Below the pieces are notes generated by a model. The model was given only the letters and a program-made list of their open reading frames with translations. It had not been told where the DNA came from and did no database searches. A stretch of 33,296 nt of DNA from Desulfamplus sp. (GTDB lineage: Bacteria > Desulfobacterota > Desulfobacteria > Desulfobacterales > Desulfobacteraceae): NCBI GenBank assembly GCA_015231465.1, contig JADGBO010000004.1, forward strand, positions 4,741 to 38,036, written 5' to 3'. Each line of letters opens with the position of its first letter. Position 1 is the first letter of the stretch. Positions 6,481-29,775 of the stretch are shown here, piece after piece. A program made the translations under genes and the position numbers.

Positions 6481-6492
6481 AATTTGTCAATT

Positions 6493-7467
6493 ATGTTCAT
6501 AGGCGGATTCCAGAAAAATACACTCATCGACTTTCCAGGAGAAATTGCATCCCTGGTCTTTACCCAGGGGTGCAATTTTCGCTGTCCTTACTGCCACAAC
6601 CCCCTCCTTGTTCCCATGGCCACTCCCGGGCATAAAAATCAGGTGTTGTCCAAATATCCGGTGTTATCCCAGGATCGGGAGCTGTCCAAAGAACCGGTGT
6701 CGTCCCAGGATCGGGAGCTGTCCAAAGAACCGGTGTCGTCCCAGAATCGTTTTTTGCCCAAAGAGCGGTGTTTGCATCTGGAACCGGTGGATGAGCAGGA
6801 GATATTATCTTTCCTTAAAAAAAGAAGGGGCCTTATTGACGGGGTTGCCATAACCGGCGGGGAACCCACATTGCAGGAAGATATAGATGATTTTTGCTTC
6901 AAAGTTAAGAATCTTGGGTTCAAGGTCAAGTTAGATACAAACGGAAGCCGCCCCCATGTAATTGCAAATCTCCTTAAACGAAAACTGGTGGATTTTGTCG
7001 CGATGGATGTGAAAAGCGGAATAGAAGGATACAGATACCTTGGCCCTGGCAATCTGAACATCTCGGAAATAACCCGAAGCATAGGGCTTATCATTGATCT
7101 TGCTCCGTCCCATGAATTTCGCACGACATGTGTCAGGCCCTTTGTAACCCCTTCCACCATGGATGAGATACTTGACATGATCCAGGGTGCATCCTCCTAT
7201 GTTCTTCAGCACTTCTCACCCAATGCCGAGATTCTGGATCCGGACTTTTTTAAAAACAACTCCCAGGGGTACCTTCAAAAAAGCTCCCAGGAGTACCTTA
7301 AAAACAGCTCCCAGGGGTATCTTAAAAACACCTCCCAGGGGTATCTTAAAAACAGCTTTCAGGGGTATCCCCGGGATCATGGTTCCATCCAATTATGCAT
7401 CGAAGAAGAGATAGATATTTTTCAAGGGATGGCACGGCAGCGGGGAGTTCCATGTACTGTCAGGTGA
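6493..7467 (+). CDS. nrdG: Anaerobic ribonucleoside-triphosphate reductase activating protein (radical SAM)
   Basis: CNFRCPYC motif, AITGGEPTLQ, position directly downstream of nrdD. ATG 6493 preferred over the upstream TTG 6484. Confidence 0.9.
   Translation: MFIGGFQKNTLIDFPGEIASLVFTQGCNFRCPYCHNPLLVPMATPGHKNQVLSKYPVLSQDRELSKEPVSSQDRELSKEPVSSQNRFLPKERCLHLEPVDEQEILSFLKKRRGLIDGVAITGGEPTLQEDIDDFCFKVKNLGFKVKLDTNGSRPHVIANLLKRKLVDFVAMDVKSGIEGYRYLGPGNLNISEITRSIGLIIDLAPSHEFRTTCVRPFVTPSTMDEILDMIQGASSYVLQHFSPNAEILDPDFFKNNSQGYLQKSSQEYLKNSSQGYLKNTSQGYLKNSFQGYPRDHGSIQLCIEEEIDIFQGMARQRGVPCTVR
6643..6770 (+). repeat. In-frame 36-bp (12-aa) tandem repeat in nrdG
   Basis: Units at 6643 (degenerate), 6679 and 6715 plus a partial; encode (V/E)LSK(Y/E)PV(L/S)SQDR. 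Confidence 0.93.
7258..7373 (+). repeat. In-frame 24-bp (8-aa) tandem repeat near the nrdG C-terminus
   Basis: Units at 7258, 7282, 7306, 7330 and partial 7354; agctcccaggggtatcttaaaaac encodes SSQGYLKN. Confidence 0.93.
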
Positions 7468-9652: not shown

Positions 9653-9771
9653 CCTTAGGGCAGCAGAATCGAAAAGACAAGCTGATGCAGGGCTCTGCTT
9701 TAACTCGGGGGATGATGCTCATCCCCTTTTTTCATTAATTGGGATACCCCCCATGTCTTAGGAGTTTACCT

Positions 9772-12624
9772 ATGAGTTCCGAGTCTCTTGAAAAAGGATA
9801 TGAACCATCCGGAATTGAAGAGAAATGGTACAGTTACTGGCTGGAAAAAGGTTTTTTTTCAGCAAAGGAGAAAAGTGACCGTAAAGCCTATTCCATTGTG
9901 ATTCCTCCGCCCAATGTCACCGGAGTTCTTCACATGGGACACGCTTTGAACATTACCATCCAGGATATTCTTTGCCGTTACAGACGGCTTTGCGGAGACA
10001 ATGTTTTATGGATGCCGGGAACGGATCATGCCGGCATTGCAACCCAGAATGTTGTGGAGAAACATCTTGCACTCGAAGGTATCACCAGGGATCACCTGGG
10101 AAGGGACAAATTTGTTGAGGAAGTATGGTCCTGGAAAAATAATTACGGCGGAGCCATCATCAACCAGCAGAAACGTCTTGGAGCTTCCTGCGACTGGGAT
10201 CGGGAGCGGTTTACCATGGACCAGGGACTATCCGATGCCGTAAGAAAGGTATTTGTCCGGCTGTACCGGGACGGGCTTATATACCAGGGGCAGTACATCA
10301 TCAACTGGTGTCCGAGATGCCGCACCGCCCTTGCGGATCTGGAGGTGGAACATGAAGAGGAGCAGGGTTTCCTTTATCATATTCGCTACCCCTTTGAAAA
10401 GAGTACAACCGGCAAAGACGGTCTGGTGGTGGCCACCACCAGACCCGAGACCCTTTTCGGCGATACGGCCGTGGCAATCAATCCCGGTGATGAACGCTAT
10501 CTTAAACTTACCGAGACCCGGGTGAGGCTCCCCCTCACCAACAGACTCATTCCAATTATCAAGGATGAGTATGTGGATATGTCATTCGGCACCGGTGTAC
10601 TCAAGGTTACGCCTGCCCACGATTCCAATGACTTTAACCTTGGAGAGACCCATGGACTGGAGCGCATCAAGGTCATAGATGATGACGGCATAATGACCGA
10701 TCAGGCAGGGGAGCTTTTCACGGGGCTTGAACGCTTTGAGTGCAGGAAAAAGGCCTTGCAGGAACTTGAAGCCCTTGGACTCATTGTGAAAACAGAACCC
10801 TTGAAGCATAATGTGGGACACTGCTACAGGTGCAAGGCCGTTGTGGAACCCTCTCTTTCCAAACAGTGGTTTGTAAAGGCCGCTCCCCTGGCCAAAGTAG
10901 CTTCCGATGCGGTGAGAAATGGCGAGACACGTATAATTCCGCAAACTTGGGAAAAAACATATTTTGACTGGTTGGACAACATTCAGGACTGGTGTATCTC
11001 CCGTCAGATATGGTGGGGCCATAGAATTCCTGTATGGAAATGCATGGAGTGCGACCAGATCATGGTTGAAGAGGAAGACCCCGCATCCTGTTCCCTTTGT
11101 GCCTCCACAGACATTGTCCAGGAGAGTGATGTGCTTGACACATGGTTCAGCAGTGCCCTCTGGCCCTTTTCCACAATGGGATGGCCCGATGATACCGATC
11201 TTCTCAAAACCTTTTACCCCACAAGTGCCCTTGTTACAGGCTTTGATATCCTTTTCTTCTGGGTTGCCCGCATGATGATGATGGGTACCCGCTTCATGGG
11301 AGCTGTGCCTTTCCGGGATGTCTATATCCATGCCCTGGTCCGGGACGAACATGGCAAGAAAATGAGTAAATCCAAGGGTAATGTCATTGACCCCTTGAAG
11401 GTGATAGATAACTACGGAGCAGATGCCTTTAGGTTCACCCTGGCAGTTTTTGCAGCCCAGGGCAGGGATGTGAGGATGTCCGAGGGCAGGGTGGAAGGTT
11501 ATCGCCATTTTGTCAACAAGCTCTGGAATGCTTCACGTTTTGCCCTTATGCACTCCCTACCCACTTCTCCGGATATGCCTTTGGAAACCCTTTTCTCCAT
11601 GACCGACAGGTGGATACTCTCAAGAAATCGTTCCACCCTTGCCGCCGTTGCCGGGGGTATTGAGAACTATAGATTCAATGAAGCTGCCGGAGCCGTTTAT
11701 CATTTTGTCTGGCACGAATTCTGCGACTGGTACCTTGAAGCCTCAAAACCAGCCCTTTACGGCAAGGAGGGGGATGTGCGGTGTGATACGGCAAAATGGG
11801 TACTGGCAAAGGTACTCAGGGATATCCTCGTCATGCTCCATCCTTTTATGCCCTTTGTAACCGAAGAGTTATGGCAGGCCCTTCCCATGGTTCAAGGCTC
11901 CATCATGGAGGCACGCTATCCAGGCAGGGAAGATAAACCATCAATGGAAAATCAAGGTGTGGAAAATCAGGAACTGACAGATACGTCATTGATGGAAAAT
12001 CAAGGTGTGGAAAATCAGGGACTGACAGATACGTCATTGATGGAAAATCAAGGTGTGGAAAATCAGGAACTGACAAATACGTCATTGATGGAGAATAAGC
12101 CGATTGGGGAGGACGTAACCGAACATGGCGATATCCATGGGCAGATGACATTTGTGTTTGATCTTGTATCCGCCATCCGTAACATAAGGGCCGAGATGAA
12201 TATCCAGCCCTCAATGCAGCTCAATGTGTTCATGGAGACGGCAGATGAAAAGGAGCGGAGCCTTATACAGGAAAACAGCTCCCTTGTCAGAAACCTTTCA
12301 AGGCTGGACTCCCTCCTAATTGCCCATCAAGGCAGGGAAGATATACCATCCACTTCCGCCACGACCGTGGTTTGCGGCACCACCATTCATCTGTCATTGA
12401 AGGGGGTTATAGATTTCGACAAAGAGGAGCAGAGGCTTGGGAAGGAGATTGGAAAGGTGACAAAGGAGCTTGTCTCCCTGTGCCGGCGACTCAGCAATGA
12501 GAGTTTTCTTGAGAAGGCACCTGAAGATGTCGTGGAGAATGTCAAGGCACAGCAGAAGATGCTCCAGGAAAAGAGTGATACCCTAAACAGTCATCTGGAG
12601 CGGATCAGGAATATGAGGGGATGA
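9772..12624 (+). CDS. valS: Valyl-tRNA synthetase
   Basis: AGGAG at 9760-9764 before ATG 9772; PPPNVTGVLHMGHALN (HIGH), KMSKSKGNVIDP (KMSKS), WFSSALWPFSTMGWP, C-terminal coiled coil. Confidence 0.97.
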   Translation: MSSESLEKGYEPSGIEEKWYSYWLEKGFFSAKEKSDRKAYSIVIPPPNVTGVLHMGHALNITIQDILCRYRRLCGDNVLWMPGTDHAGIATQNVVEKHLALEGITRDHLGRDKFVEEVWSWKNNYGGAIINQQKRLGASCDWDRERFTMDQGLSDAVRKVFVRLYRDGLIYQGQYIINWCPRCRTALADLEVEHEEEQGFLYHIRYPFEKSTTGKDGLVVATTRPETLFGDTAVAINPGDERYLKLTETRVRLPLTNRLIPIIKDEYVDMSFGTGVLKVTPAHDSNDFNLGETHGLERIKVIDDDGIMTDQAGELFTGLERFECRKKALQELEALGLIVKTEPLKHNVGHCYRCKAVVEPSLSKQWFVKAAPLAKVASDAVRNGETRIIPQTWEKTYFDWLDNIQDWCISRQIWWGHRIPVWKCMECDQIMVEEEDPASCSLCASTDIVQESDVLDTWFSSALWPFSTMGWPDDTDLLKTFYPTSALVTGFDILFFWVARMMMMGTRFMGAVPFRDVYIHALVRDEHGKKMSKSKGNVIDPLKVIDNYGADAFRFTLAVFAAQGRDVRMSEGRVEGYRHFVNKLWNASRFALMHSLPTSPDMPLETLFSMTDRWILSRNRSTLAAVAGGIENYRFNEAAGAVYHFVWHEFCDWYLEASKPALYGKEGDVRCDTAKWVLAKVLRDILVMLHPFMPFVTEELWQALPMVQGSIMEARYPGREDKPSMENQGVENQELTDTSLMENQGVENQGLTDTSLMENQGVENQELTNTSLMENKPIGEDVTEHGDIHGQMTFVFDLVSAIRNIRAEMNIQPSMQLNVFMETADEKERSLIQENSSLVRNLSRLDSLLIAHQGREDIPSTSATTVVCGTTIHLSLKGVIDFDKEEQRLGKEIGKVTKELVSLCRRLSNESFLEKAPEDVVENVKAQQKMLQEKSDTLNSHLERIRNMRG
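11944..12096 (+). repeat. In-frame 48-bp (16-aa) x3 tandem repeat inside valS
   Basis: atggaaaatcaaggtgtggaaaatcaggaactgacagatacgtcattg at 11944, 11992 and 12040; units differ by about one base. Confidence 0.97.
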
Positions 12625-16856: not shown

Positions 16857-17494
<638 letters not shown>

Positions 17495-17778: not shown

Positions 17779-19656
17779 TTATCGGGTTATCCGATATGCG
17801 ACCACAATACTTTCCGACGGTGAGAATGGAGTGAGGCTGTCCTTTAATACTTCTGCGATCACAAGTTCGTTGTAGCCGTCATTATCAAAGTCTGCAATGA
17901 CGAAGTCCGTTATCCTTCCTTTATGGACCGGGGTCGTCCATTGGGGAGAGAATGCCGATCCTGTCCAGTAAGCTGATGTGACAAAGCCCTTGCCAAGGCT
18001 CCTTACCTTGCTTAAAATCCCGAGGGCTGCATCCTGATTGGAAGCATATAAAATTTCCATCATGCCGTCATCGTCAATGTCGGCGGACACTGTTCTCAAT
18101 GGAAAAAATTGTATTGGATTTGTATCGGCCGGCATATCTTTGGGCAGATTGAATCTGTTCAAGGAACCCCCGGAGCTTTTGGCATCCCTCCATATTTCCT
18201 TGCCGGAGGCACTGATAAGTGTCAGGTAATCTGACCTGTCATAGGCAATAAAAGCGGGCCTGTACTCCCCTGGAATGTCATAAATGGCTGCTCCCATGAT
18301 ATTGACAATCCCTGGACCCAGGAGCTGATCCCCCGGAGTGTAGTCGCTGCCACTCCAGATCATTTTATATATTGGAGCCGAGTGTATGGCATCGGCACCC
18401 CGCTTCTGGTTCTGCCCCAGAAGGATATTGCCATGGAGCTGGCTCTTTGCAACCCTGAAGTACCAGTTTTTTTTCCGGACCAGGGGTGAGTAGTCCCTTC
18501 CGTTGTACTCAAGTACAAATGAACTCAGGAAACTGTTTTCCGGTGCAAGGCTTGTGATAAAAATTTCTGCGATTCCGTTGCCGTTTATATCCCCGGTGTC
18601 AACCCCGATAAATGTCGAGACTTTGTTATTTGCAGCTTCTGCAATTTTTACAAAACGGCTGTTCACAAATTGATATATAAAGACAGAATGGTCGGAAATG
18701 ATAACGGTCTCCATTCTGCCGTCCCCGGTGACATCTCCCACGGCAATGCCGTTTATCAGATGATTGAAAACAGGGCTTTTCCAAACTGAACGGCCGCTGC
18801 CTCCGGCACTGTCAACCTGGGTGAAGGCTGTGTTCGGCAGCAGTTGATCATCCCGGTCACTCCGGTCCTGGCCCTGGGATATGAATACTGGGTTGAGGTT
18901 TTCCTGACCCCTGGTGGAGGGGCTGCCATGGGATTGGGAGATGGAACCCGGGGCTTGTGCAATGGATTGATGCTGGAAGGGTGCAGATTGATGTTGGAAA
19001 GGGGTGGATTGATGGCCGGAAGGTGCAGATTGATGTTGGAAAGGGGTGGATTGATGGCCGGAAGGTGTGGATTGATGTTCAAATGTATTTTGTGATGCAC
19101 CCCCGCCTTGTGTGGAAAGGTCTCCGGAAGTGAGGGTTACGGAGGCTCTATGGAAAATGGTCTCATTTATTGTGGTGGCAAACTGATTGATGGCCGGAAT
19201 CACCCCGCCGGGATCCCCGGCCTGCTGATAAAACGGAATGGGTTCATGTTTTCCGGAGATATCCACAAGTTTGGAATCAATGCTGGTGCTGCTTCCTATG
19301 ATGGTGACACTGCCATGGATTACAAAGTCGGCCTGGAGTTCTCCCCCGGCAAGAAGGGCGAGGCTCTCGCCGGAAAAGCCCTTTATGCCGGCTGTAACCT
19401 TGTTTACCATCTCCTTCTCTAAGACTTTGACCCTGCCGCTCCATGAAAGGCGTGAGTTGAGCATATCCTGGATGCCCCCTTTGAGAAAGTCAAAATCCTG
19501 GGCTGTGTTTATCTCAAAGGGCAGCACTGCAATGGTCAACGGATTCTGTTCTTTGGCTGCCGCCCCGGGGATAAAAAGAATAAGGATGGGAAGAACTATT
19601 GCCGTTAATACCGTAGCCATCAACTTGGGGAATTTCAAAAATTTCTTTTTTTCCAA
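17779..19656 (-). CDS. Exported FG-GAP/VCBS-type repeat protein with N-terminal TolB/FlgO-like domain
   Basis: TTG start after AGGAG; signal peptide; TIAVLPFEINTAQDFDFLKGGIQDMLNSRL; Ca-binding-like DVTGDGRMETVII, DINGNGIAEIFI, DIDDDGMMEILY, DFDNDGYNELVI. Confidence 0.82.
   Translation of the reverse strand: MEKKKFLKFPKLMATVLTAIVLPILILFIPGAAAKEQNPLTIAVLPFEINTAQDFDFLKGGIQDMLNSRLSWSGRVKVLEKEMVNKVTAGIKGFSGESLALLAGGELQADFVIHGSVTIIGSSTSIDSKLVDISGKHEPIPFYQQAGDPGGVIPAINQFATTINETIFHRASVTLTSGDLSTQGGGASQNTFEHQSTPSGHQSTPFQHQSAPSGHQSTPFQHQSAPFQHQSIAQAPGSISQSHGSPSTRGQENLNPVFISQGQDRSDRDDQLLPNTAFTQVDSAGGSGRSVWKSPVFNHLINGIAVGDVTGDGRMETVIISDHSVFIYQFVNSRFVKIAEAANNKVSTFIGVDTGDINGNGIAEIFITSLAPENSFLSSFVLEYNGRDYSPLVRKKNWYFRVAKSQLHGNILLGQNQKRGADAIHSAPIYKMIWSGSDYTPGDQLLGPGIVNIMGAAIYDIPGEYRPAFIAYDRSDYLTLISASGKEIWRDAKSSGGSLNRFNLPKDMPADTNPIQFFPLRTVSADIDDDGMMEILYASNQDAALGILSKVRSLGKGFVTSAYWTGSAFSPQWTTPVHKGRITDFVIADFDNDGYNELVIAEVLKDSLTPFSPSESIVVAYRITR
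18966..19085 (-). repeat. In-frame 21-bp (7-aa) tandem repeat
   Basis: Alternating attgatgttggaaaggggtgg / attgatggccggaaggtgcag units; encodes HQSTPFQ/HQSAPSG heptapeptides. Confidence 0.93.
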
Positions 19657-19799
19657 TGGTCGCTCCTGATTCTAACAAGTTGTCGTAAGTAGATTATCAT
19701 AAACAAACATGGCTGACGTTCAGTCACCCACTGAGATAAAAATTTGTATTTATAAGAATGGCGTAAAACCCCTATCCCTTTAGGGTAGAGGTAGTTCAC

Positions 19800-19974
19800 T
19801 TAGGAATTGATTTTTAATAACCCCCATGGCGGCACTACCGCCACAATCGAAATGATGAAAGTCCTTGAACGACGGGGACTTTCATATAAACTTGCCCATT
19901 CACCTCACCCCACAAACCCCTCTCCATGACTGGAGAGGTGGAGTTTGGGTAAGTTAATTAAACCCTATTACTTA
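19800..19974 (+). repeat. ~100-bp TIR element, copy c, interrupted by a 70-bp double-hairpin element
   Basis: taggaattgatttttaataa [19821-19890 cccccatggcggcactaccgccacaatcgaaatgatgaaagtccttgaacgacggggactttcatataaa] cttgcccattcacctcacccc...tttgggtaagttaattaaaccctattactta. Confidence 0.9.
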
Positions 19975-20120
19975 ACAGGATAAAGGTATTTCAATTAAGA
20001 AAACAATAGTGATTCCTGCCTTTAAAGTCAATCTTTTGTTGGGGATATGTGATTGTTGTATGTTTTACATGCACCTTTCCGCCTCATGGAAAAATGATTC
20101 AATGATATTGACTCTTTAAC

Positions 20121-20137
20121 GATAATCAATCATTATC
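20121..20137. promoter_or_regulatory. Possible Fur-type palindrome
   Basis: GATAATcaatcATTATC, about 100 bp upstream of the ORF at 20237. Confidence 0.25.
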
Positions 20138-20236
20138 TATGCCCATATCAATTGAATTGCAGGGGCAGTTCCTTGGGTCTGCCCTTAAGAATTGATTTGC
20201 TAAAATGGAACTATCGCAAATGACAGGAAAACCGGA

Positions 20237-22027
20237 ATGGGAGAGATCAGGGTGAAAATGGATGGAGTGTTGAATATGGGAGTTTGTCTAAGGAGGATAT
20301 ATCTGATTTTTTTTGCGGCACTGTTTATGTTTAAATTGCTTTTTGCCGACACCTTTTTCAATGCTGCATTTGCCGGCGATGGAAATTCCGTTGTAAGGGT
20401 TGCAGTCTTTCCTTTTGATGTGGCAGCCCATGGGGATATGAAGTTTATAGGTCAGGGAATGGGAAAGATGCTATGCAGCCGAATAGCTTCCCAGGGACTG
20501 ATTGATGTCCAATGTTTTGACCTTCCGCCCGGGAATTACAATATTGATCTTGATGCTCCGTCACCGGAAAAAATCGCCTTGATACCTGAACTCCAGGGAG
20601 TTGATTTTTTTGTGACCGGAACCGTCACCATTGTCGGAGAGAGTATAAGCAGTGATGCCCGATTGATCTCCAATCTTCCTGTTTTAAAATCTTCCACCCC
20701 ATCCCGCATTGAATATTTTGCTGAAAGCGGAACAGGAGTCGGGGATATCATGCGTCATGCCTCGGTGATCTCCGGGAAGATAAAAGTCTCTCTTTTGCAA
20801 GACCCGAGCCCTCCGGCCCCGCCTGGTGACACCGGTGTTCTTGATATAGGGGCAGTGGATAAAGGGGGTATGGAGACGGGACCCATTGACCCCGGCTCGA
20901 TTAGAACGGGACCCATTGACCCAGGCTCGATTAGAACGGGACCCATTGATCCTGGTTCGGTTAGAACGGGACCCATTGATCCTGGTTCGGTTAGAACAGG
21001 ATCCATTAAACCCTGGCATATTGATCCTGCCGGCACCGGGATCTTCCAAAGCAGGAGCCTTGATATGGCTGCACGGGGCATGGCAGTTGCGGACATTGAT
21101 GCCAGCGGAGTTCTGGATATCGTACTCATGGATGACCGTAAAATACGGTTTTTTATTTTTCAGCAAAACCGGCTGATTATGAAGGGGGAGTACATGGCTC
21201 CGAGATATATTGAAAATATCGCCCTGGATACCTTTGATTCCAATGGCAATGGAAGGTCTGAAATATGGGTTTCCGCCGTGGGCAGAAACAACAGGGTCAG
21301 ATCATATGTCCTGGAGTGGGACGGCATCCAATTCAAGCCGTTGGTCAAGGATGGAGATTTTTACGTAAGGGTTCTCCCCTTTGATGGAAAAAAGATGCCG
21401 GCCGGCCAAAAGAGGGGCATTGATAATATATTCATGGGCTCTGTAATGGCCGTTGGCCTTGATGGAAAAAGTGTTGTGGGAAAAGAAAAATTGTTTCCTG
21501 CCCCTTTCCGGATATTCGGCACTGCCCGGGGAAAATTTCATGGAACAGGATCAGAAAACCTTTTATGGTTTGATGAATACGGTTTTTTGCTTATGGGAAG
21601 GGAAAACCGAGAAACAATCTGGAAAAGTCAGGCTTCACTGGGCTCCACAGCCGTATTCCTGGAGCAGGGCAGGGGGGCTAACGAACTTAAGGAGAAGATA
21701 TACATCAGCCAGCGGCTCTGCCTTGAAGATATTGATGGAGACGGCATTGACGAAATTATCACCTTCAGCAATTCCGATATGGCAAGGGGTTTTCTTGCAG
21801 GGTACAGAAAATTCAACACCGGAAATATCGAAATTTTTCAATGGACCCCCGGCGGGTTGGAAAGTTTGGCCCGGGGCAATCCCGTGAACGGCTATATTGC
21901 GGATATAGCGGTGAAGGATATGAACGGTGATTCATCCATGGATATTGTCTATTGTGTTGTGACAAGTGTGGGAACTTTACCCCCCAGGTACCATACAAAG
22001 ATTTTTGTCGAAAAGATGACAAATTGA
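20237..22027 (+). CDS. Exported FG-GAP/VCBS-type repeat protein, paralog of 17779..19656
   Basis: VVRVAVFPFDVAAHGDMKFIGQGMGKMLCSRI, VDFFVTGTVTIVGESISSDARLI, DTFDSNGNGRSEIWV, DIDGDGIDEIITF, DMNGDSSMDIVY. Confidence 0.82.
   Translation: MGEIRVKMDGVLNMGVCLRRIYLIFFAALFMFKLLFADTFFNAAFAGDGNSVVRVAVFPFDVAAHGDMKFIGQGMGKMLCSRIASQGLIDVQCFDLPPGNYNIDLDAPSPEKIALIPELQGVDFFVTGTVTIVGESISSDARLISNLPVLKSSTPSRIEYFAESGTGVGDIMRHASVISGKIKVSLLQDPSPPAPPGDTGVLDIGAVDKGGMETGPIDPGSIRTGPIDPGSIRTGPIDPGSVRTGPIDPGSVRTGSIKPWHIDPAGTGIFQSRSLDMAARGMAVADIDASGVLDIVLMDDRKIRFFIFQQNRLIMKGEYMAPRYIENIALDTFDSNGNGRSEIWVSAVGRNNRVRSYVLEWDGIQFKPLVKDGDFYVRVLPFDGKKMPAGQKRGIDNIFMGSVMAVGLDGKSVVGKEKLFPAPFRIFGTARGKFHGTGSENLLWFDEYGFLLMGRENRETIWKSQASLGSTAVFLEQGRGANELKEKIYISQRLCLEDIDGDGIDEIITFSNSDMARGFLAGYRKFNTGNIEIFQWTPGGLESLARGNPVNGYIADIAVKDMNGDSSMDIVYCVVTSVGTLPPRYHTKIFVEKMTN
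20876..21016 (+). repeat. In-frame 30-bp (10-aa) tandem repeat
   Basis: acgggacccattgaccccggctcgattaga at 20876, 20906, 20936, 20966 plus a partial; encodes TGPIDPGS(I/V)R. Confidence 0.95.
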
Positions 22028-24582: not shown

Positions 24583-27500
24583 TTACCTATTAATGCTTTT
24601 TATTAAAGGCAAAGAATCTCCAATGCCCCGGATATAAGGCCTGTACATATCTTCAATCATGGGCGGCGGCACCATGAACTCCCCTGGAGTAACAACTCTT
24701 GTCGGATAGAAGAGTCTGAAAGTTTTTCCTCCCATGATGTCCAACGCGGCAGCAAAACGGTCATCCCTGTACTCCTTGTGGAGTATGGCAAAATTTCCAT
24801 GCCACTGTGCAACGGTTTTGCCCTCCACCATTAGATCATCCACGGCACTGCTGCCCAAAAGGGAAGGATCCTCCAACTCCATACATGCCGGAAGCATATC
24901 CACCACAATGGCATGGGGAAGCCTCTCATCCGCCTGGAAGGAGAGTTCCACAAGCACTCGCATGCCCATGGAAAAGGAACCATCCGGCATGATCTCTTCA
25001 CCGGACATATTGAGATACCTGCGCCGGACAGAGACTCCGCTGGTCACAGGGTCGGGTTTCTGATCCGGATATCCGTTCATGACAACGTCAATGAAAAGGG
25101 GTATATCACCCAGGTTTGTGATGGAAAAATCACGGACGGAAGTGCCCCGGGCCATGACAGTGCGGAAACCCTTCCCCTCCTCAATCATGCTCCCGGGGGC
25201 ATTTACCCGGGCCCGCCAAAATCCTCCCTCCTGTTTCATGGCAGAATAACCGGCCATGACAAGGGAATTCCTCTCCTGGGTACTCAGCCACTGCCGTGTT
25301 CCGAGAAGATGGTTCACATGCATTAGAAACTCACCCCTTCCTGGAAAATCAGGCACATGGGTGGAGAGAAGATAAAAGGCAAGGGCGGCATCTCTTAGGT
25401 CACTGCCGTAATCGCCGTAGTATCTGCCCTTTCTGCCCTGGGTTTTCAAATTGTTTTGAGCCAGGGCAAGGGCATTTTCCAGGGCTTCCAGGGCAAGTGG
25501 GGCATCCCCGGCAAGGTAGAGTGCGATGCCGGCCTGTACAGCTCCCAGGGGGGTCTGGAACCCATCTTTCATGGAGAGATAGAGGGATCTTGCATCCCCC
25601 AGGGTAAGGCTCTGAACCCGGGCCAGAACCATGGCGGCATAGGCCCTTGCCGATGCGGTATAGTGGGATCCTGTAGTGTACAGGGGAGGCTTTACGGTTC
25701 CAGGTCTTCTGACATATATAAGAAGTCGATCCAGGGCCCTTGAAAGGGAGTCCCGGGGCACACCGTAACCCGCTTCCCGGGCATTGAGCAGAAAATCGGT
25801 GACATAGGCCGTAAGCCAGTAGTCCTCGGGACCATCTGCACTCCAAAGGCCGAAGCCTCCTCCGGACTTCTGCTTTTCCAGGAGCCTCTGGATGCCCAGG
25901 GAGACCCTCTCCAAGCGTTCTCCGTCATCCATGGAAGTTATGCCCAGGGTTCTGAAATCCCCGGAAGATAGAATCACATGGGGAAACACCGCACTTGCTG
26001 TCTGCTCCAGACACCCATGGGGATAGCCGTTGAGAAAACGGATGTGGTCGGCAATATTCATCGAAGGCAGGGATCCCATGGCAGCCTGGACCACCATGGT
26101 ATCATCCATGACTCCTGCCAGGGCCTCCGGGGGCATGGAAAACTCCTCCCCGGGACCAAGCTGTTTTCTCCAGGATTGGGTAACAGCCGGATAGGGAGGC
26201 CTTGTCTCAATGAACCATTTTTTGATGAGAACACTCCCCGGGGTATCTTTCCCAATAACACTCCCCGGGGTATCCTCCCCAAACACACTCCCCGGAGTAT
26301 CCTCCCCAATCACACTCCCCGGGGCATTCTCACCAATCACACTCCCCGGGGCATTCTCACCAATCACACTCCCCGGGGTATCCTCCCCAATCACACTCCC
26401 CGGGGTATCTTTCATAATAGCACTCCCTTGGGTATCCGGGACACCATCAGCTCCATTTTTCACAATGCCCTCAATCCTGCAGGTGATGACGGATCTCCCC
26501 ACCCCTTTTTCCGCTATTACCGGTATGGACAGATCAACCCTCCGGCCCGGTTCCATGGAGAGTTGATGAGAGGCGGGACCCAGGGCCCTGACAGGGGGTG
26601 TCATCTCCACATGGATATCCATATTCTGGGATATGCCGCTCAAATTGGCCACCTCCAGCATGACCTGGGTGCGATCCCCCATGGAGAGGAACCTGGGCAT
26701 GGCAATCTGGACCACAACAGGGGCGGCAACGGTAACCTCCTGGTCCGCCGAACCAAAGGAGCCCGGGCCGTGGGCAACGGCCATGAAACGCAGGGAACCG
26801 TTAAAATCAGGAATTTTAAGGGAGAAAAGGGCAGTTCCGTCCCCATCCACAGGAAGGGCTTCCCGATGGATGGAGACAATCTGCACATCGGTGGAGGGCC
26901 GATCCCCGCCCCGGGAGAGCCTCGGGGCATCCCCCCCGAATCTATGGGCGGCCCAGGCCCCTTGACCCGGCTCAATGAGTTTCTGGTAAAGATCATGGAT
27001 CTCCACCCCATATCTCCGGGGCTGGAAAAAGTACTCCCAGGGAGAAGGGGTGGCAAAGCCCGTCAGGTTCAATATGCCAACATCCACCGCGGCCAGGGTT
27101 ACCCATATGGACTCCCCGGGAGTTTCCCGGGGCATCTTTACCCTTACCGGAACCTCAATGAAACGGTCAGGCTCTATTTTATGGGGAAGATCAATTTCCA
27201 GGGATATTTTTCTGTCGCTTCTGTCCAGGGGAAGATGAATAAGTCCCACGGCCCTTTTGGGCAGAGCCTGGATACGGGCCTCCCCGGGCCTGACAATAAG
27301 TGCGGATATGTATATGTCATGGCGGCTCCAGGATGGGTCCACATGAAGATCAAAGGTCCCACCTCCGGGGGGTATGGTAACAGGTCTGGTCACAAGATTG
27401 GTGTCTGCCTCCACAAAGAGGTAACCACTGCCCCCTTCCGGAGCCCTAAGAAGTACCTTTGCCGTATCACCGGGGCTATAGGATTTCTTGTCCAGAATTA

Positions 27501-29775
27501 TCTCCACCCGATCAGGACGGCCGCTCCCCCGGGCAGTGCCCCGGGACTCTCCGTCTGCCCCGGGGTACCACCCTGCCTCTATGGCATAACTGGTTACAAG
27601 GCCGGTAACGGGATGGGTCAACTCCAGCCGATAGCCCCCCCAGTTCACAGGTATCTCTAAAAGGGCCGGGGCATCCCGGGGGATGTCAACGGTAAACTTG
27701 TCCACTGGATAGAAGTTGCGGGAGTACCGCCACTGCCAGGAGTCGTTGGTGTACTCCCAGTAGTAATCCCGCTGCTCCCGTATAACCACGGCCCTGACTC
27801 CGTCAACCCCCACACTCCCTCCGTTTTGATCCACGGCCATCACCTGGAATCCGGCCACCGAGTCCCCGGGGACCTGGTCACCATCGCCCCTGGCAAGGCT
27901 CCTTATGGCCACCAGGGATTCCGCCGGCCACACCTGCCAGGTTCGGGTTCTAACCACGGGTCTCCCACCGGATTCGTAAAGGCTTACATTGGATGTTAGC
28001 CAGGCAGGAGAGGAGATGTTGTTCCACTGGTTTCCAAGCCTGATGGTTCCCCTTCCGTCACCGTCCAGGAGCAGGGAGTCGGTTTTGAAATGCCTGTCAA
28101 AGGTCTCGGAGGCATTGCCGAAGATATAACCGGGCCAGGTTTCGGGAAAAAGCTCCCGGGCAGGTTTCAGATAGATATCCGCATCTGCCCTGCTGCCCGA
28201 TGCCGGGGCTCCGTAAAGAAAATCTCCTTTCAGGGAGATGGTGAGATCGTTGTCTATGCCCAGGATATCCCCCTGGCCCGGGGGATTGTCCAAGTCCAGC
28301 TTCATCCTTTCGGGAAGGAATTCAGCCACGGTGAAAAGATAGGGTTTCAGGGGCTGCCCCGCATACTCAAACTCCACCCGCCAGGTTCCGGTCAATGCAT
28401 CCCCGGGAAGAAGATAGCTATGGGTATGGTAGTTCATGGTGCGGCCTCTCCAGGAGAACTGATGAACCATGCGGCCGTCTGGTCTGTATATCATTGCCTT
28501 TACCGGCAGGGCTCCGGCCATGAGTCCGTCATGCCTGCGTAAAAGGCCGTCCATAACCACGGTCTCCCCTGGTCTGTATATGTCCCTGGGCCCGTAAACA
28601 AACATATCCACAGGTCTCATGGGCTCTGCCGCTGCCCTGAATTCGGAGAGATCCATGGCAGGAACATCCATGGGCAGAAGGGAGATATGACGGCCATGAC
28701 GGCCAATTATGTAATGGATATCCTTGAAAGCTCCCTCCATGTATGCAACACCATTTTCATGGCTCAGGGTTTTTGCCGTGCATCGCCCCTTTTTGTCATA
28801 CACCTCGACGGATGCTCCGGCCATGGGCAGTGCCGTGTCAAGGTACTGGACCTCCACCTGGAGGGCATTGGAGTACTTTCGCACATGGAGCCCCACATTG
28901 CTGATGGAGAACCAGGTGCTGCTGTACTGGTAGTCGTACACTCCCGCACCCCGGAGTACGGCCACATAGATTCCCGGCTCCTCCAACTCGGCAATGTTTG
29001 TAATGGGGATCTTTGCCTCGGTGCGTATATCCTTTTTTATATTAAGGTCCCACCGGCCCGAATAGACCAGATCCGCGTACCTGTTAAGCTCCTGGCCCAT
29101 GTAGTAGGCAATGTTATGCTGTCTGCCCATCTCCTGGAAAAAATCGTTGTAAAATCGCTCTTTTATCCTGAAAAAATCAATGTCTGCCCGGGATATGTTC
29201 ACACTGCTCACCGGGATGCCCCGGCCCAGGGCCCAGGGCAGTATGAATCCCCTGGAGCCGAACATTATCATGTTCTGGACCGGCCTTGTTTTTACATTGA
29301 AACTTACGGCACGGTCCAGGGCAGCACCGGAAAGGGCCTTGAGACCCTTGTGAATTTTAATTGTGTAACCGGTATCCGGTTCAATGTTGGAAAAATAGAC
29401 CACCAGGGGGTCATCCGAGACAACCCATCCCCCTTCCACGGCAGAACCATCTTCGGTAAATATGGAGAGAAAGCTCTCTATCCTGCGGCCGGCATCTATG
29501 GGTTGGGAAAAGGTGACGGCAAGGGCATTCTCTCCACCTATGCTCTGCTGGGACGCAAAATGGGCAACAAACTCATCCTGTCCGGGATGGGCAACAATCT
29601 CATCCTGTCCGGAATGGGCAACAATCTCATCCTGCCCGGGAACGGTTTCATCCAGGGCGGAGATTATCCGGGGATGAGCTGCCTGCCCAAGGGAGAAGAG
29701 CCCAATAAAAAGAGACAAGGCAAGTACCCTGGATATTGAACAGCTTTCTCCGAAAAAAAACATTTTTTTTCCCAT
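24583..29775 (-). CDS. Bacterial alpha-2-macroglobulin family protein (thioester-containing)
   Basis: 1730 aa; N-terminal signal; MG-type domains (RPVDMFVYGPRDIYRPGETV); thioester motif GYPHGCLEQTASAVFP (CLEQ codons at 26002-26013). Confidence 0.92.
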   Translation of the reverse strand: MGKKMFFFGESCSISRVLALSLFIGLFSLGQAAHPRIISALDETVPGQDEIVAHSGQDEIVAHPGQDEFVAHFASQQSIGGENALAVTFSQPIDAGRRIESFLSIFTEDGSAVEGGWVVSDDPLVVYFSNIEPDTGYTIKIHKGLKALSGAALDRAVSFNVKTRPVQNMIMFGSRGFILPWALGRGIPVSSVNISRADIDFFRIKERFYNDFFQEMGRQHNIAYYMGQELNRYADLVYSGRWDLNIKKDIRTEAKIPITNIAELEEPGIYVAVLRGAGVYDYQYSSTWFSISNVGLHVRKYSNALQVEVQYLDTALPMAGASVEVYDKKGRCTAKTLSHENGVAYMEGAFKDIHYIIGRHGRHISLLPMDVPAMDLSEFRAAAEPMRPVDMFVYGPRDIYRPGETVVMDGLLRRHDGLMAGALPVKAMIYRPDGRMVHQFSWRGRTMNYHTHSYLLPGDALTGTWRVEFEYAGQPLKPYLFTVAEFLPERMKLDLDNPPGQGDILGIDNDLTISLKGDFLYGAPASGSRADADIYLKPARELFPETWPGYIFGNASETFDRHFKTDSLLLDGDGRGTIRLGNQWNNISSPAWLTSNVSLYESGGRPVVRTRTWQVWPAESLVAIRSLARGDGDQVPGDSVAGFQVMAVDQNGGSVGVDGVRAVVIREQRDYYWEYTNDSWQWRYSRNFYPVDKFTVDIPRDAPALLEIPVNWGGYRLELTHPVTGLVTSYAIEAGWYPGADGESRGTARGSGRPDRVEIILDKKSYSPGDTAKVLLRAPEGGSGYLFVEADTNLVTRPVTIPPGGGTFDLHVDPSWSRHDIYISALIVRPGEARIQALPKRAVGLIHLPLDRSDRKISLEIDLPHKIEPDRFIEVPVRVKMPRETPGESIWVTLAAVDVGILNLTGFATPSPWEYFFQPRRYGVEIHDLYQKLIEPGQGAWAAHRFGGDAPRLSRGGDRPSTDVQIVSIHREALPVDGDGTALFSLKIPDFNGSLRFMAVAHGPGSFGSADQEVTVAAPVVVQIAMPRFLSMGDRTQVMLEVANLSGISQNMDIHVEMTPPVRALGPASHQLSMEPGRRVDLSIPVIAEKGVGRSVITCRIEGIVKNGADGVPDTQGSAIMKDTPGSVIGEDTPGSVIGENAPGSVIGENAPGSVIGEDTPGSVFGEDTPGSVIGKDTPGSVLIKKWFIETRPPYPAVTQSWRKQLGPGEEFSMPPEALAGVMDDTMVVQAAMGSLPSMNIADHIRFLNGYPHGCLEQTASAVFPHVILSSGDFRTLGITSMDDGERLERVSLGIQRLLEKQKSGGGFGLWSADGPEDYWLTAYVTDFLLNAREAGYGVPRDSLSRALDRLLIYVRRPGTVKPPLYTTGSHYTASARAYAAMVLARVQSLTLGDARSLYLSMKDGFQTPLGAVQAGIALYLAGDAPLALEALENALALAQNNLKTQGRKGRYYGDYGSDLRDAALAFYLLSTHVPDFPGRGEFLMHVNHLLGTRQWLSTQERNSLVMAGYSAMKQEGGFWRARVNAPGSMIEEGKGFRTVMARGTSVRDFSITNLGDIPLFIDVVMNGYPDQKPDPVTSGVSVRRRYLNMSGEEIMPDGSFSMGMRVLVELSFQADERLPHAIVVDMLPACMELEDPSLLGSSAVDDLMVEGKTVAQWHGNFAILHKEYRDDRFAAALDIMGGKTFRLFYPTRVVTPGEFMVPPPMIEDMYRPYIRGIGDSLPLIKSINR
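26231..26446 (-). repeat. In-frame 27-bp (9-aa) x8 tandem repeat in the macroglobulin
   Basis: acactccccggggtatcctccccaatc-type units every 27 bp from 26231; encodes (D/N)(T/A)PGSVIGE. Confidence 0.96.
29560..29640 (-). repeat. In-frame 27-bp (9-aa) x3 tandem repeat near the macroglobulin N-terminus
   Basis: atgggcaacaatctcatcctgtccggg at 29560, 29587 and 29614; encodes GQDEIVAHS. Confidence 0.93.

Follow-up and report, generated by a model that had tools for sequence, protein, structure and literature searches.

Prokaryotic satellites, as surveyed by Subirana and Messeguer 2019 (PMC6749651), are tandem repeats of 10–260 bp, many of which lie in genes; their periods are mostly multiples of three and their families mostly species-specific. 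In the reference genomes of that survey, they reach a maximum of 23 per Mb in bacteria and 89 per Mb in archaea, and 18 of 119 bacteria have more than 4 per Mb. Enzymes of Plasmodium falciparum, such as PfExo (PMC11260460), carry lineage-private, disordered, low-complexity inserts of tens of residues, whose length varies among related species and which are absent from other relatives. A census of tandem repeats in proteins (PMC7230257) found that they concentrate in intrinsically disordered regions, an association that is the principle underlying the idea of permissive linkers. Concerning tandem repeats of Desulfamplus, no literature was found beyond one paper on magnetochromes.

Two neighbouring, divergently transcribed genes of a Desulfamplus sp., P0001 and P0002, encode paralogous proteins that carry unrelated arrays in their linkers. 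They lie in a window of 33,296 bp (the whole stretch of DNA that was analysed, C347:4741-38036) from a 3.63 Mb MAG made of 402 short contigs (72% complete, 47% GC). The favoured reading, with a probability of about 0.85, is that these arrays are independent, lineage-private minisatellites and local cases of a genus-wide process filtered by reading frame and protein fold. The features of the pair are the following.

17779..19656, minus strand: P0001, secreted FG-GAP protein of 625 aa (ORF, FG-GAP_3, N-terminus resembling a signal peptide on inspection)
19159..19539, minus strand: N-terminal alpha/beta domain of P0001, residues ~40-166 (pLDDT, Foldseek match to TolB, CsgG)
18790..19140, minus strand: disordered linker of P0001, residues 173-289 (pLDDT < 50 throughout)
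~18952..19077, minus strand: 21-bp array of HQSTPFQ-type heptapeptides, ~5.5 copies, with a 42-bp higher-order period (TRF, codon listing)
17791..18789, minus strand: FG-GAP beta-propeller of P0001, residues ~290-622 (strand pattern, pLDDT, Foldseek propellers)
20237..22027, plus strand: P0002, secreted FG-GAP protein of 596 aa, divergent paralog of P0001 (ORF, FG-GAP_3)
20798..21034, plus strand: linker of P0002, residues ~188-266 (alignment of 66 homologs)
20876..21017, plus strand: 30-bp array of TGPIDPGS(I/V)R decapeptides, 4.7 copies (TRF, codon listing)
21035..22018, plus strand: FG-GAP beta-propeller of P0002 (FG-GAP_3 at residues 286-345, alignment with P0001)

P0001 and P0002 can be aligned end to end (24% identity on 586 columns, E 4e-34), which identifies them as paralogs. 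The initial annotation was thus right that they are alignable over the N-terminal domain and the FG-GAP region, but the TolB/FlgO label that it gave to the former is not upheld by Pfam. FG-GAP_3 (PF13517) is recognized above its curated score of 26.9 in both proteins (58.6 bits, E 9e-16 in P0001; 38.3 bits, E 2e-9 in P0002). TolB models match neither of them (Pfam at E 0.1, NCBIfam at E 0.01), neither is assigned to any NCBIfam family and the CsgG match of P0001 in Pfam is sub-threshold (E 0.077). The AlphaFold2 model of P0001 starts with a signal helix, followed by an alpha/beta domain modelled with confidence (residues 40-166, pLDDT mostly 82–93), a stretch with pLDDT below 50 (residues 173-289) and, from residue 290, an all-beta propeller with high pLDDT. 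In Foldseek searches with this model, propeller structures rank first, and solved TolB structures align on ~585 columns (E ~1e-7) with a low TM-score (0.2–0.33). The proteins would have a TolB-like, probably periplasmic, layout: an N-terminal domain, a linker and an FG-GAP beta-propeller. They may share the succession of an N-terminal alpha/beta domain and a beta-propeller with TolB and with FG-GAP (integrin-like) propeller proteins, but differ from TolB by the low TM-scores and by a linker of 70–115 residues that houses the arrays.

The array of P0001 covers residues 194-235 (HQSTPSG/HQSTPFQ/HQSAPSG/HQSTPFQ/HQSAPFQ/HQSIAQA); the 21-bp heptapeptides reported initially are thus present, although less uniform than the quoted HQSTPFQ. 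Its 42-bp higher-order period points to the duplication of multi-unit blocks. The array of P0002 begins at residue 214 and consists of four TGPIDPGS(I/V)R units and one degenerate unit, in agreement with the decapeptides first described. Both unit lengths are multiples of three and both arrays are in-frame. They do not result from chance, as TRF reports 23 rows in the window and 0–2 in each of 20 dinucleotide shuffles. The placing of the two arrays at one position holds for the homologous disordered linker and not for an identical residue: that of P0001 lies inside the predicted disordered stretch, and that of P0002 in a linker placed by alignment only. With 0 mismatches, a 17-bp core of the 30-bp unit is found at its own locus only, and matches with 2 mismatches are about as numerous as in the control; a mobile or shared repeat family behind this array was thus rejected. 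Weak matches of the P0002 linker elsewhere in the genome (contigs C98, C93 and C80) involve the array region alone and were taken as low-complexity.

The linkers were compared in 66 sequences, namely P0001, P0002 and 64 homologs from related genomes. P0001 orthologs are present in most Desulfamplus genomes and P0002 orthologs share 41–48% identity within the genus. Both occur across the genus, usually as a divergent pair, and homologs occur across the order. None of the 64 homologs carries HQSTPFQ or TGPIDPGSIR units, which are confined to the species of the window, or an array intermediate between them. The congener linkers are rich in S, T, P, Q and N and mostly aperiodic; the P0002 ortholog of G006 (L073:1692-3548) has its own 21-bp array (3.6 copies of an SPLQ-type 7-residue unit), unrelated to the other two. 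This comparison, suggested as a check in the initial annotation, supports its interpretation of independent arrays. In the tree, P0002 belongs to a 12-row clade (support 100/100), and P0001 to a separate clade that also holds members of other families (14-row group, support 98/94). Since these two supported clades each reach other genera, the sequences indicate that the duplication took place before the genus arose and that both arrays postdate it.

Could both arrays descend from one repeat that was present in the linker before the duplication and then diverged beyond recognition? Their location within a homologous linker fits with such an origin. However, their periods differ (21 vs 30 bp), their units are no more similar to each other than shuffled units (P 0.52) and orthologs of both clades lack an array, except for the unrelated one of a single congener. 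Furthermore, units of the same array are nearly identical (0–4 differences on 30 bases in P0002, mostly 0–7 on 21 in P0001) while orthologs differ at more than half of their residues, which argues that the arrays are young. A common ancestral repeat is thus highly improbable. The nearest relatives, ~45% identical in P0001 and P0002, are too distant to reveal the sequence that preceded the birth of the arrays or to date them. Independent origin after the duplication, as claimed from the outset, is supported by the private units, the tree and the unit comparison.

The pair had also been presented as strong evidence for repeat birth at permissive linkers, and this is overstated. In the sampled part of the genome (540 kb), 19 of the 67 genes encoding 500–800 aa (28%) carry arrays, and two given genes of this size would both do so by chance in ~8% of cases. 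Random placement would put both arrays in the linker in 0.2% of cases, a figure that is raised by the avoidance of domains by arrays. Over the 66 homologs, 8 of the 22 arrays detected by TRF at a weak threshold lie in the linker, which makes up 8.3% of residues (P 2e-4, a generous value as the homologs share ancestry and the arrays of P0001 and P0002 are counted in). The permissive-linker principle is established by the data from the whole genome and from the congeners; the pair is an illustration of it rather than a proof by itself.

The window contains ~14 distinct arrays according to TRF. Arrays with a period of at least 9 bp were counted in 540 kb of this genome, the single one analysed for the species (~15% of its length, contigs taken by number): 194 arrays were found, i.e. 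359 per Mb, covering 3.4% of bases. Seven sampled congeners have 91–653 arrays per Mb (small samples; for example, 207 arrays in 140 kb of G001) and four genomes from other genera have 12–88. The proportion of array-bearing genes is 79/330 in this genome, 37/243 in the congeners and 6/219 in the other genera. As with the prokaryotic satellites described previously (PMC6749651), many of these arrays lie in genes, their periods are mostly multiples of three and their families are mostly private. Unlike those satellites, the arrays reach 117 per Mb in the same 540 kb under a decamer criterion that imitates SATFIND without being the original program, almost every unit is proper to a single array, and the arrays occur in ordinary enzymes rather than in repeat domains of surface proteins. 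An all-against-all comparison of the 194 arrays gave 11 pairs sharing sequence, none of which involves the P0001 or P0002 array, and no k-mer dominates among them as a common seed motif (the top 6-mers are modestly enriched). As units are seldom common to several arrays and no seed stands out, these data argue against a mobile element. Loss of mismatch repair or of RecJ was considered as a cause and rejected: mutS and recJ are both found in the genus, and the rate is thus not explained by any repair defect found here. In the genome of the window, mutS is in two pieces near contig ends (L289/L290; G000 C188 and C112) and its middle is missing, possibly because it holds an array too long for assembly.

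Of the genic arrays, 101 of 104 have a best period divisible by three, against 36 of 90 intergenic ones. The latter proportion is not different from 1/3, the expectation without selection. Arrays would therefore arise indifferently to period, and selection would remove those that break the frame. The same contrast weighs against an assembly or binning artefact, in which misassembled reads would have created false repeats. The fragmentation of the MAG and the absence from it of any array longer than 207 bp, close to the span of short reads, are what such an artefact would predict, and arrays longer than ~200 bp may indeed escape short-read assembly. However, errors would not keep the frame in genes while ignoring it between them, contig ends show no excess of arrays (5 observed vs 5.5 expected), and separately assembled congeners carry similar arrays, some of them common to sister species with diverged units. 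An artefact is therefore scarcely credible, even less so than a common ancestral repeat.

Avoidance of domains is visible as well. Counted with the best stretches per family only, 3 of 43 array midpoints fall inside Pfam stretches (18.3 expected); in the 34 proteins that both carry arrays and match Pfam, these stretches make up 41% of residues and 8.7% of array residues. The units, of 4–27 residues, are enriched in G, S, Q, P, E, D, T and H. The pN/pS ratio between adjacent units is 0.65 (0.56–0.76), vs 0.97 and 0.86 for the two alternative frames, which suggests that the repeated peptides are under weak constraint, the synonymous excess leaving room for some selection. The array-bearing proteins include core ones: valyl-tRNA synthetase, MnmE, DnaG, TatD, alanine racemase, MurJ, a PurE-like protein, a radical SAM enzyme and CheA. 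Three arrays from the window are listed below.

6634..6749, plus strand: 36-bp array in the gene for a protein with a radical SAM domain (6484-7467)
11944..12096, plus strand: 48-bp array in valyl-tRNA synthetase (9739-12624), found by TRF
26231..26437, minus strand: 27/54/81-bp array in a bacterial alpha-2-macroglobulin gene (24583-29775)

The valyl-tRNA synthetase array is a clean insert of ~56 residues; 19 relatives have a short loop at this place and lack the array. Like the P. falciparum inserts (PMC11260460), such arrays are lineage-private disordered inserts in conserved proteins, but here they are minisatellites with units of 4–27 residues in a bacterium of 47% GC. The radical SAM gene lies directly after that of an anaerobic ribonucleotide reductase, and its product has two arrays that differ from each other, one falling within the radical SAM domain. 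Elsewhere, a right-handed beta-helix protein of 1795 residues (L205:1-5385) also has a 42-bp array and a different 33-bp one.

This range of hosts bears on the possibility that the linker peptides have a specific job, such as ligand binding, spacing of the N-terminal domain and the propeller, or glycosylation, and expanded adaptively as in adhesin repeats. P0001 and P0002 both look secreted, and the pN/pS value given above implies some constraint. Yet the units differ from species to species and between paralogs, or are lacking, and similar arrays occur in the cytoplasmic valyl-tRNA synthetase, MnmE, DnaG, TatD and LpxD, for which a common adaptive role is implausible. Selected modules are thus unlikely, although less so than the two alternatives discussed above.

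If linkers are permissive, different arrays are expected at one loop in different lineages, and this is observed in three proteins. The MnmE loop holds 5.6 copies of a 7-aa unit in the genome of the window, 13-aa units in G045, which belongs to another family, and aperiodic inserts in G001, G002 and G008. In the RecJ loop, G000 (the genome of the window) and G006 have arrays with different units and other congeners have aperiodic sequences. The LpxD-like loop carries 5-aa units in G002 and 14-aa units in G006. G002 and G008, two sister species with ~82% DNA identity, have array sites in common, at which unit sequence and copy number differ: 4.0 vs 6.9 copies in LpxD, 2 vs 3 in MutS and 4.4 vs 5.0 in a third protein. 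This variation was seen between sister species only, and at genes other than P0001 and P0002. The names LpxD and Lol-type permease for these loci were assigned by inspection of the sequence.

In the favoured reading of independent minisatellites, the history of the two arrays can be drawn as follows. Long after the gene duplication, a short duplication would have arisen in each pre-existing disordered linker, most likely by slippage or recombination. The array would then have grown by further unequal events, including multi-unit duplications, and would have persisted since units of this length do not disturb the frame and added residues are tolerated by the linker, the array being nearly neutral. 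At the scale of the genus, births would be frequent at many sites without any common seed sequence; arrays that shift the frame or hit a domain would be removed, and the survivors would change in copy number and become different from one species to the next. The proposal is that births are more frequent than usual, not that losses are fewer, but weak purging, due for instance to a small effective population size, would fit equally. More tentatively, and with somewhat less than even odds, Desulfamplus may have a heritable mutational peculiarity, such as a modified factor of replication or recombination, through which minisatellites would form all over the genome many times more often than is usual for bacteria and core enzymes would be continually remodelled by private inserts.

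Tandem repeats in disordered linkers are already known; their density and their spread through bacterial core enzymes are unusual. The association described by the census (PMC7230257) is statistical, whereas independent births at one site are visible here in paralogs and orthologs. Minisatellite birth is hard to study as most bacteria have few of them, whereas Desulfamplus has hundreds per megabase, each private; its sister species differ in copy number and unit sequence at common sites, and its paralogs and orthologs provide repeated trials at one loop. Birth rate, frame filtering and loop tolerance thus become measurable from sequence, and the arrays of valyl-tRNA synthetase, MnmE, LpxD and RecJ are natural experiments on loops that accept insertions. 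Such arrays should not be taken for functional motifs of a given protein.

Several minor observations concern the surroundings of the pair and its homologs. Beside its own copy, G004 has a second P0001-type gene (L070, G004:C75) that is almost identical to that of G009 (L076, G009:C74) and is likely a bin contamination. The intergenic regions that flank P0001 (17517-17625 and 19798-19975) share some wording (aggaattgatttttaataac; gtaagttaattaaaccc) and perhaps hold a small dispersed repeat element. A perfect 4-bp AATC repeat (16857-16915, 14.8 copies) overlaps the 3' end of a gene of the Uma2 family (16907-17494, minus strand). Further runs of 4 and 7 bp occur in the genome, e.g. L166:491-627 (ATTG x 34) and L154:9872-10042, and all these runs could be phase-variable sites.
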